A stretch of DNA of 64,000 bases from Promicromonospora umidemergens (lineage in GTDB: Bacteria; Actinomycetota; Actinomycetes; Actinomycetales; Cellulomonadaceae): assembly GCF_024171995.1 (NCBI RefSeq), contig NZ_JAMTCT010000010.1, forward strand, positions 124,001 to 188,000, given 5' to 3'. Made by a program: the position numbers and the translations under genes. Shown one piece after another: positions 30,069 through 32,139 of the stretch. Under the pieces are notes generated by a model. It was not told the DNA's origin. It saw only the letters and a program-made list of their open reading frames with translations, and made no database searches. Numbering within the stretch: the first letter of the stretch is position 1; each line of letters starts with the position of its first letter.

Positions 30069-30806
30069 TCACCGCTGAGCCTGCTCGGTGCTCAGCAGCC
30101 GGGCCAGGCGGGCGTCGTCGTGCTCCAGCTCTGCGGCGGTCGCCGGGGAGGTGAGGACCACGGAACCGCCACCGGCCCAGACGCCGAGCAGGTGCCGCAG
30201 CAGGTCCGCGACCGCACCACGCCCGTCCACCAGCACTCGGGCACCGGCTCCGGGCTCTGGGACCAGGTCCTTGTGCCCGACGGTGCCCGCGGCGGTCACC
30301 AGGGCGTCCTGCTGGGGTTCTACCTCGGGCACCCAGCCGATGGCGTCGCCGTAGGTCATCACGGCCGAGGCCGCGTCGATGGCGCCGGGAGGCAGGTCGC
30401 CGTCGTACCGGCGGGCCAGCGCGGGCAGGGAGACGGCGACGAGGTCGGCCCCGCCGTCGGCCCAGCGCTCCGGGCTGTCGGTGACGACGACGTCCGGCTG
30501 CGCGACGGAGGCGTCGGGCACGGCGATGGTCGCGCCGGTACGCCAGGCGGCCAGCGCCCACACCGCGGTGCGCCAGTGCACGGGCAGGTCGACGACGACG
30601 CTGGTGCCCGGCCCGACGTCGAACTCCTCGACGAGCAGGTTGACGGTCTTGCTCGCCCAGTTGGCGAGGACGGCGCCGGAGAGCTCGACGCGTTCGCCGT
30701 CGTCGCCGTACCAGGTGAGACGGGGGCGACCGCCGTCGGCGGCGAGGCGAGCGAGGAGCGAGGCGATGTCGGGCACGGGGCCGCCGCTGCGGGACGCGAT
30801 CTGCAT
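30069..30806 (-). CDS. TIGR03089 family protein
   Basis: A 245-aa actinobacterial protein of the TIGR03089 family, related to the N-terminal part of AMP-forming acyl-CoA synthetases but too short to be a complete enzyme. Visible stretches include PRLTWYGDDGERVELSG, NLLVEEFDVGPGTSVVVDLP and HWRTAVWALAAWRTGATI, which correspond to the start of the adenylation fold. The ATP-binding and adenylate motifs further along that fold are absent. Start ATG 30806 follows a TAGGCT box by six bases. Its conserved place beside LCP genes suggests a cell-envelope link; the molecular function is unknown. Confidence 0.88.
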   Translation of the reverse strand: MQIASRSGGPVPDIASLLARLAADGGRPRLTWYGDDGERVELSGAVLANWASKTVNLLVEEFDVGPGTSVVVDLPVHWRTAVWALAAWRTGATIAVPDASVAQPDVVVTDSPERWADGGADLVAVSLPALARRYDGDLPPGAIDAASAVMTYGDAIGWVPEVEPQQDALVTAAGTVGHKDLVPEPGAGARVLVDGRGAVADLLRHLLGVWAGGGSVVLTSPATAAELEHDDARLARLLSTEQAQR

Positions 30807-30812
30807 GCCGTC

Positions 30813-30818
30813 AGCCTA
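30813..30818 (-). promoter_or_regulatory. -10 box TAGGCT, leaderless TIGR03089 gene
   Basis: TAGGCT (minus strand) ends six bases before ATG 30806; same box and spacing as in front of pdtaS. Confidence 0.65.
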
Positions 30819-30860
30819 TGAGTTCGGATCTCCACCCGCGGACCGATGACTCCGGCGGCC

Positions 30861-31217
30861 GCCGAACCGCAACTTGTTCCGCCCCTGGCGGCGCCGAACC
30901 GCAAGTTGCGCGGGTTGGGGTCCGCCGAGCCGCAAGCTGCGCGGGTTGGTGCTGCCGAACCGCAAGTTGCCCGTGCTCAAGCGGCCGGTATGTCGCCGAA
31001 CCGCAACTTGCTCGTCACGGGCCGCGCCGAACCGCGAGCCACGTGTCGATCAGGGCCCGGATGGACCATCTTCGTTCGGTTCGGCGTCGATGAAGAAGGG
31101 GAACTTGCGGCTCGGCGTTCGTCGGGCCGCTGGAGGACCACTAACTTGCGGCTCGGCGCCACGCTGCCCGCATCAACTTGCGGTTCGGCGACCAGCACGA
31201 GCAACGTGCGGCTCGGT
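30861..31217. repeat. mirror-symmetric array of a 16-bp unit (GCCGAACCGCAAGTTG)
   Basis: Six direct units start at 30861, 30893, 30924, 30954, 30995 and 31026; five inverted units start at 31070, 31101, 31142, 31174 and 31202. The core is GCCGARCCGCAASTTG. Intervals between starts are 32, 31, 30, 41, 31 and then 31, 41, 32, 28. The two halves mirror each other around 31055/31056: unit pairs 31026/31070, 30995/31101 and 30954/31142 are exactly equidistant, and the next two pairs are off by two bases or fewer. Sequences between units are not complementary although their lengths are. It is non-coding (31-bp period). Confidence 0.85.
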
Positions 31218-31237
31218 ATCTGTCGGGTGGCGGCCCG

Positions 31238-31337
31238 CTGATCGGCCGGACTGATCGACCGGACTGATCGGCCGGACTGATCGGCCGGACTGATCGACCG
31301 GACTGACCGGACTGACTGACCGGACTGACTGACCGGA
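31238..31337. repeat. tandem 13-bp repeat CTGATCGRCCGGA
   Basis: Five perfect-length units of CTGATCGGCCGGA or CTGATCGACCGGA (31238-31302), then a shortened 9-bp unit and two CTGACTGACCGGA units. It begins about 20 bp after the mirror-symmetric array. The period is not a multiple of three, so no conserved protein is encoded. Confidence 0.9.
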
Positions 31338-31340
31338 CAG

Positions 31341-31396
31341 ACTTGCCGACTTGCCGACTTGCCGACTTGCCGACTTGCCGACTTGCCGACTTGCCG
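31341..31396. repeat. tandem 8-bp repeat ACTTGCCG x7
   Basis: Seven perfect head-to-tail copies of ACTTGCCG, followed by a GCCG-rich stretch. Perfect identity suggests recent expansion or slippage. Confidence 0.95.
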
Positions 31397-31420
31397 GCCG
31401 GCCGGCCGACCTGTCGACCC

Positions 31421-31460
31421 ACCGATCCACCGATCCACCGATCCACCGATCCACCGACCC
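31421..31460. repeat. tandem 8-bp repeat ACCGATCC x5
   Basis: Four perfect copies of ACCGATCC and a fifth with one change (ACCGACCC). A further GGCCGACCTGTCGACC motif occurs on both sides (near 31405 and 31479). Confidence 0.9.
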
Positions 31461-31797
31461 ATCAGCCACCGACGCACCGGCCGACCTGTCGACCGACCGA
31501 CACCGATCCCGGCCCTGGCGGCGGTTCGCCGGTGCCCGGGGATATGAAAAGCAGGAGCTCTGAGTGAGACGTGCGCCACGACCTGCGGAAGGACTCGTGA
31601 ATTACCCGTGGAATCCGTGGGCGATAGCACATTTCCGCTTGACGACTCCAGGCGACACGCGTGTAATTCCATGTATGCAGTTTTCGTAGCGCATACGCAA
31701 CGGGGCCTGGAGACTGCAGGTCTGGCCAGCCACGATGACCGGTATGGGTCGGGCCGGCAAGGCCCCGGAGCACGGACACGGCATGGAGGGGCACGTC
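31461..31797. other. upstream region of whiB2
   Basis: 337 bp without a supported gene. The first part is a decaying continuation of the tandem repeats; from about 31560 the GC content drops noticeably and a good promoter is present at 31639-31667. Confidence 0.6.
31639..31667 (+). promoter_or_regulatory. candidate whiB2 promoter, TTGACG-N17-TGTAAT
   Basis: TTGACG (31639-31644), a 17-bp spacer and TGTAAT (31662-31667) match the housekeeping consensus at five of six bases each. Transcription would start near 31674, leaving a 5' leader of about 120 nt before whiB2. Confidence 0.6.
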
Positions 31798-32139
31798 ATG
31801 TGGAACATTCTGGAATCGGACGTGAAGTTCCCGACTGACGCGGAAATCGCGGCGGTGCCGGTGGCACCGGTCCTGCCGCTTTTCGGCGAGCTGTACGAGC
31901 TGACGGAGCCGGACGAGTCGCTGCTCGGTTGGCAGGAGCGTGCCCTGTGCGCGCAGACCGACCCGGAGGCCTTCTTCCCGGAGAAGGGCGGGTCCACCCG
32001 CGAGGCCAAGAAGGTCTGCTCCGGCTGCGAGGTCAGGGCCGAGTGCCTGGACTACGCGCTGGAGAACGACGAGCGGTTCGGTATCTGGGGCGGTCTCTCG
32101 GAGCGTGAGCGGCGCAAGCTGAAGCGCCGCGCGGTCTGA
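31798..32139 (+). CDS. whiB2: WhiB2/WhmD-type iron-sulfur regulator
   Basis: A WhiB-family regulator needed for septation and cell division in mycobacteria (WhmD). 113 aa from ATG 31798, which has GGAGGGG six bases upstream; starts at 31735 and 31783 are in frame but lack one. Cluster cysteines are at 51, 74, 77 and 83 (ALCAQTD, VCSGC, AEC), followed by GIWGG and the basic tail RRKLKRRAV. The acidic/proline-containing N-terminus of about 45 residues is typical of the WhiB2 group. The stop codon is the first base triplet of a dispersed repeat. Its place next to the LCP and mannose genes is the same as in M. tuberculosis. Confidence 0.93.
   Translation: MWNILESDVKFPTDAEIAAVPVAPVLPLFGELYELTEPDESLLGWQERALCAQTDPEAFFPEKGGSTREAKKVCSGCEVRAECLDYALENDERFGIWGGLSERERRKLKRRAV

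Follow-up and report, generated by a model that had tools for sequence, protein, structure and literature searches.

Dispersed repeats of bacterial chromosomes are usually described either as palindromes or as simple tandem repeats. A different arrangement is known from plasmid centromeres, such as parC of plasmid R1 and sopC of plasmid F, where a protein multimerises on regularly spaced repeats; in parC, two repeat blocks lie around a middle. Among the chromosomal repeats, binding of IHF, gyrase and DNA polymerase I has been reported for REPs and BIMEs (PMC2817692). The CGTC-tagged REPs are palindromes scattered over the genome, for which no dedicated transposase is known; their stems measure 8-9 bp and their loops 4-5, and a CGTC tag at the end stays unpaired. 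The main text of that paper lacks the word “actinobacteria” but mentions REP-like sequences in M. tuberculosis (PMC3733652). Insertion sequences known to target REPs belong to the families IS3, IS110, IS4, IS256 and IS5 (PMC1525189).

Here we analyse an array of 16-bp units found in a window of 64,000 nucleotides (the whole stretch of DNA that was analysed), together with its counterparts in the window's own Promicromonospora genome (G000, 6.6 Mb) and in other genomes. The nearest kind are the REP/BIME repeats, yet several of their defining features fail. As in REPs and BIMEs, there are many dispersed intergenic copies and regularly spaced clusters, which serve as insertion-sequence targets; such targeting, common though not universal for REP/BIME repeats, is seen here in three of three IS30-family left ends, all of which abut units. 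REP units, however, are themselves palindromic, whereas the 16-mer of the arrays is non-palindromic and only the core is a palindrome. BIMEs alternate in orientation, while the arrays consist of one direct and one inverted block about the core (77 of 90 arrays), and the Y1/RAYT transposase of the GTAG-type REPs is missing from all 14 genomes searched here. The arrays resemble the CGTC-tagged REPs in a CRCGTC tendency after their units, but the CGTC lies within a core of about 60 bp and does not form an end tag. With the plasmid centromeres they share the regular spacing, and with parC also the two blocks around a middle; parC and sopC, in contrast, are present as a single copy beside a partition operon, whereas about 40 sites are found here and no flanking family recurs often. 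Among the matches listed for titles and abstracts of openly accessible literature, there was no description of such arrays. The letters of the 11-mer shared by the units, or their complement, occur in three papers, which are on other subjects judging by their entries.

The array in the whiB2 gap

Eleven 16-bp units, six on the plus strand followed by five on the minus strand, occupy positions 30861-31217 of the window and are mirrored about the axis 31055/31056. All of them were found where the earlier note had placed them, and the mirror symmetry that it had described was confirmed: outward from the axis, the steps are 31, 41, 30, 31 and 32 bp in the left arm and 31, 41, 32 and 28 bp in the right arm, and the innermost pair (31026/31070) is 44 bp apart. 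The array sits in a divergent gap between a gene for a TIGR03089 family protein and a gene for a WhiB family regulator, the whiB2 of the earlier note. The units, the core centre and the flanking genes are listed below.

30069-30806, minus strand: flanking gene, TIGR03089 family protein (NCBIfam TIGR03089, E 2.9e-61)
30861-30876, plus strand: unit, left arm, outermost; GCCGAACCGCAACTTG, 0 mismatches
30893-30908, plus strand: unit, left arm; 0 mismatches, step 32
30924-30939, plus strand: unit, left arm; 1 mismatch, step 31
30954-30969, plus strand: unit, left arm; 0 mismatches, step 30
30995-31010, plus strand: unit, left arm, first outer; 0 mismatches, step 41
31026-31041, plus strand: inner unit, left core half, degenerate; 10.9 bits, step 31
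31042-31069, no strand: core centre of 28 bp, semi-palindromic, with a tendency to CRCGTCNATCNGG then CCNGATGGACNNG (column frequencies, 32 G000 rows); dyad 31055/31056
31070-31085, minus strand: inner unit, right core half, degenerate; 12.2 bits, 44 bp from 31026
31101-31116, minus strand: unit, right arm, first outer; 1 mismatch, step 31
31142-31157, minus strand: unit, right arm; 1 mismatch, step 41
31174-31189, minus strand: unit, right arm; 0 mismatches, step 32
31202-31217, minus strand: unit, right arm, outermost; 2 mismatches, step 28
31735-32139, plus strand: flanking gene, WhiB family regulator (Pfam Whib, E 1.4e-27)

Nine of the eleven units differ from the 16-mer by at most two mismatches. 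The two innermost units are degenerate, with four mismatches each, and still stand on the ladder (bit scores in the list are from the motif matrix). If up to three mismatches are allowed, the window holds 17 matches to the 16-mer versus 3.5 expected, and 17 was reached in none of 100 shuffles. The spacers had been called unrelated in sequence and matched in length. The first two steps are of equal length in both halves; the sequences are not wholly unrelated, as the bases following a unit lean to CRCGTC (32 G000 rows). This tendency is strongest in the core, with 97% for the G of GTC.

The interval from the array to the whiB gene holds three distinct short tandem repeats, which lie back to back at 31231-31486 and have repeat units of 13 bp (CTGATCGGCCGGA), 8 bp (GACTTGCC) and 8 bp (CGATCCAC). 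By eye, they are absent from the other whiB gaps compared.

Recurrence and geometry of the arrays

A 15-mer of the unit, searched in G000 at up to one mismatch, occurs at 113 places, compared to eight for a reversed-pattern control. Among the matches listed, 36 stretches were taken by the 15-mer motif only, and therefore their geometry is unselected. Thirty of these stretches and the window together contain 32 arrays of at least three units, while six stretches hold fewer units. Plus-then-minus polarity is found in 23 of the arrays; five are one-sided, four are composite or include a stray unit, and none is reversed. The 154 same-direction steps fall into two narrow classes, 72 of 30-33 bp and 73 of 40-43 bp (145 in all), with a single step of 34-39 bp and eight elsewhere. 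Plus and minus neighbours are 44 bp apart in 14 and 75 bp apart in 12 of 29 cases, the 75-bp centre being 44 + 31 bp with one inner unit under the threshold.

A sequence model of the array with 122 positions yields at least 140 matches in G000, corresponding by hand count to at least about 40 places (both strands and split halves included). Mirrored arrays, for which a search of the genome and its relatives had been suggested, recur in G000 with 31/41-bp spacing, in other species and, with steps mostly of 30-33 bp, in a second genus. In all, 96 stretches and the window gave 90 arrays, ten stretches being without any array of at least three units. Among these 90 arrays, 77 are plus-then-minus, five are one-sided and eight are composites or include a stray unit; a minus-then-plus order does not occur. 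Only the core counts of G000 are unbiased, since the loci from G002, G008, G004 and G025 came from a model that fixes the central geometry, and the 90 arrays are not independent, because several are mutual orthologues. The order of the steps is also regular: in 28 arrays, where only steps of 26-47 bp were sought, 51 of 55 arms begin, going outward, with a step of three helical turns, and a four-turn step comes second in 27 of 37 arms.

Arrays within the genus

Across 59 genomes including G000 itself, the 122-position model (E <=0.001, strict filters, each strand counted separately) gave 69 matches in G000, 70 in G002, 49 in G008, 47 in G025, 15 in G004, 14 in G003 and four in G012, as well as one or two each in G015, G019 and G055. 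By eye, the G012 loci resemble degenerate remnants and those of the latter three genomes are not array-like. The model found zero arrays in seven of 12 congeners (G001, G005, G006, G007, G009, G010 and G011), or in six of 11 if congeners at least 90% complete are considered. A small tree of 12, which is only weakly resolved, does not unite the array-bearing species in a single clade.

The gap upstream of whiB2 contains an array in two of 13 genus members, G000 and G008, and is without one in the other 11. The tie to whiB2 implied by the earlier note consequently found no support, and a general regulatory role at whiB2 was rejected. Absence from relatives with the same flanking genes, which had been put forward as evidence against the element, is indeed seen at this locus but not genome-wide, as 14 G000 arrays are matched by an array next to the same genes in a relative (our own count, in 40 stretches of G002, G008 and G004). 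In the orthologous pairs aligned, among those listed, the core is kept and the number of units per arm differs. Thirteen such pairs with a located core allowed 25 arm comparisons: the first step spans three turns in both partners in 21 of them, differs by one turn in three and measures 27 bp on one side in the remaining one. Given that the array is missing from the whiB2 gap in 11 of 13 members and that the model detects none in seven of 12 congeners, its function is dispensable.

By eye, a CCGGCGTGTC palindrome is present near the whiB promoter in six of the 13 gaps (L117, L118, L123, L124, L125 and L129), and several other whiB gaps harbour a CCGGCGTGTC-like variant without GTGTC. GACAC is the WhiA motif of Streptomyces.

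Arrays in a second genus

G025, a one-contig genome of 4.7 Mb from another genus of the same family, carries about 37 array places (hand count, E <=0.01). Twenty of its stretches gave 21 arrays with the layout known from G000. Of 21 pairs of plus/minus neighbours, 20 have a centre of 45 bp, and 84 of 96 steps are 30-33 bp long, with none at 40-43 bp. The outer GYCGAACCGCA is common to the arrays of G025 and Promicromonospora, while the core sequences differ; the outer 11-bp sequence, a putative recognition sequence, is thus kept between genera, and the middle of the core would be exchangeable. Three core types were seen, two of them in G025 (TGAATCGTGCC and GGGACACGCC) and a third in G000; cores of the GACACGCC type are present in G002 and G008, too. 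Arms like GACACGCCG / CGGCGTGTC mark a core type that is common to the two genera and was noted at L151, L156, L157, L160, L161 and L163 in G002, at L153 and L110 in G008, and at L135, L141, L143 and L149 in G025.

The reach of the element beyond the two genera is only roughly known. A model of the G025-type core matches four of 221 genomes of the family and misses G000 with its third core type. An exact generic core pattern matches two of 396 genomes of the order, G000 and G025; it caught only eight cores in G000, which was the sole row of its genus listed in that search. Three flanking gene families are common to both genera (81-87% identity). Two of these are immediate neighbours of arrays on both sides, with the array at opposite gene ends between the genera; in Promicromonospora, the third (88 aa aligned) is the second gene from the array. 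Comparison of the fetched stretches revealed no array site orthologous between the genera. Along the G025 chromosome, where dnaA lies at 12.5 kb, array places are denser toward the origin (KS p 0.003; 0.038 with places within 20 kb merged), an observation that is suggestive only.

Position relative to genes

Genes were called with a crude codon-usage caller, which recovered the expected neighbouring genes of the window array. Of the 90 arrays, a single one shares more than 30 bp with a called gene. Four arrays are at contig ends, and the remaining 86 were classified as lying in convergent (26), tandem (46) or divergent (14) gaps; the corresponding numbers for the remaining gaps of these stretches, if 60 bp or longer, are 29, 118 and 72 (chi-square p 3.5e-4; with all gaps as the reference, p 0.0046). 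The distance to stop codons (n = 98) has a median of 46.5 bp, that to start codons (n = 74) one of 116 bp. These location counts take in orthologous arrays more than once. When flanking genes were compared without annotation, the largest recurrent family had eight members, some of them mutual orthologues. A scan that requires a T run detected no terminator-like site in 30700-31750, and an intrinsic terminator at the window array was rejected on this basis.

Pairing between the two arms

The earlier note had offered a giant hairpin as an alternative to protein binding. In 28 G000 arrays, mirrored columns are paired in 74.4% of cells versus 75.5% with partners shuffled, and all five pairing measures fall under the shuffled mean. 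In-register pairing drops to 29-38% when the columns are slid by 1-3 positions, an excess that is due to the symmetry of the consensus. The RNAalifold covariation term of the G000 arrays is -0.07, and tests of identity between the two halves were null in this genome (p 0.75, 0.89 and 0.99). Neighbouring units within an arm, in contrast, are more alike than shuffled ones (p 0.008), and over the 90 arrays the numbers of units in left and right arms are uncorrelated (r = -0.005). The window array folds well as a single sequence (z -5.2 vs shuffles) because of its dyad symmetry, and a search of Rfam returned nothing at gathering score within the window. For the window's type of array, a giant hairpin or structured RNA was accordingly dismissed.

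Mirrored bases without covariation, similarity of neighbours within an arm and uncorrelated arm counts in G000 point to a constraint on duplex sites: the array arms behave as independent rows of such sites. The cores of G025 differ in this respect. In 21 of them, 92.2% of the positions are paired versus 80.4% after shuffling, and none of 500 shuffles was as high; the covariation is due in part to four rows of the second core type, and the first outer units of G025 arrays (20 tested) do not display it. Palindromes tend to correct themselves, and either such self-correction or a hairpin function may additionally maintain the complementarity of the G025 core.

Insertion sequences and mobile carriage

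The arrays are targets of an IS30-family element (NF033563, E 6.6e-33). Its left ends occur in G000 at three places (up to one mismatch), and all three abut an array unit. In each case the shared GTTGTC begins 19 bp past the unit; the distance is 15 bp if the preceding GCCC/CCCC belongs to the element. On contigs C3, C7 and C13, right ends lie at the contig edge and likewise abut arrays, and one array is flanked by one left and one right end, its G002/G008 counterparts lying on one stretch. Copies of the element were also noted inside arrays at assembly breaks of G000 (L180, L181, L182, L033, L017 and L039).

The IS30 transposase was found in two of 15 genomes, G000 and G001. As it is missing from the array-rich G002, G008 and G025, the element uses the arrays and does not make them, and it was discarded as the array maker, also with regard to the three copies in G001, which is array-free by the 122-position model. 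These three transposase copies are located at L183, L185 and L187. The Y1 transposase (PF01797) was detected in none of 14 genomes searched, while a control search was positive in five of 14 well-known genomes; a REP with RAYT was thus rejected. One generic core pattern had no match in viral contigs, and one core query had no match in plasmids, which led us to reject carriage by phages or plasmids.

Proposed explanation and alternatives

A protein that has to sit on one helix face needs just such a ladder, polar and mirrored, whose steps are 31 or 41 bp with almost none between; RNA pairing does not predict it. The protein-binding array suggested by the earlier note is supported in this respect, as three- and four-turn steps prevail genome-wide and the arrays extend to other species and a second genus, the protein itself being putative. 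Judged from the sequences, belief and doubt are about evenly balanced as to whether the array is an oriented, helically phased binding site on a dyad core for a putative sequence-specific DNA-binding protein.

The array would then constitute a chromosomal assembly site for this protein. In the most economical model, the dyad core, which is about 60 bp long and has two half sites of 30 bp, would be bound by two molecules placed head to head, and further molecules would join head to tail outward, one per 16-bp unit and always oriented toward the core. Steps of three turns (31 bp) or four turns (41 bp) would place every molecule on one and the same helix face, and the arms would lengthen or shorten through tandem gain or loss of units. 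The position mostly near gene ends and the excess in convergent gaps suggest that the complex would most likely be an architectural or boundary element, which bridges DNA or blocks transcription or the spread of supercoils, and not a promoter element. Three observations speak against a binding array: it is dispensable within the genus, the covariation of the G025 core is not needed by a plain duplex site, and the arms grow and shrink like any short tandem repeat. That the arrays represent a new chromosomal nucleoprotein system, in which the putative protein nucleates on the dyad core and extends along both arms per three- or four-turn step, is put forward tentatively.

The strongest rival is a selfish repeat akin to REPs and BIMEs, an account that we deem rather unlikely. 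Its palindromic core would spread as a hairpin-forming miniature element, the outer units would be half copies generated by tandem duplication, and the phasing would reflect the length of the half core (30-31 bp) and not a bound protein. Such a repeat explains the spread and location of the arrays, which are dispersed, intergenic, biased to gene ends, patchy between species and, like REPs, targeted by insertion sequences; the half-core length is near the unit step, and in G025 the core arms covary while the first outer units do not. It accounts less well for the 41-bp steps and their usual second place, which the half-core length leaves unexplained, or for the retention of many arrays at orthologous sites. 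The absence of the Y1 transposase from the genomes searched, the lack of matches for the generic core in viral contigs and for one core query in plasmids, and the G000 cores without covariation also argue against it.

Bidirectional transcription terminators at gene ends would fit the enrichment in convergent gaps relative to other gaps; they are improbable nonetheless, given the empty T-run scan around the window array, the 14 of 86 arrays (the window's included) in divergent gaps and a phased ladder that a terminator does not require. Even harder to credit is a structured RNA or a long single-strand hairpin formed by the whole array. The low fold energy and the in-register pairing seem to favour it, though dyad symmetry and a symmetric consensus alone would yield both, and the covarying G025 core is a genuine point on its side; the G000 arrays, on the other hand, lack covariation, the arm counts are uncorrelated and the window has no Rfam match at gathering score.

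Implications

Across species and in a second genus, the arrays keep their spacing, polarity and step order while most of the spacer letters change. Because these properties outlast the spacer letters, a physical requirement on the helix face is indicated. The binding-array model predicts that every unit is protected on one helix face by a protein. If such a protein is found, it would be a new actinobacterial architectural protein, or the arrays would form a new class of selfish repeats imitating the sites of one. If the model is true, about 40 sites per chromosome, denser toward the origin in one genome, would amount to an unrecognised chromosome-organising or boundary system.
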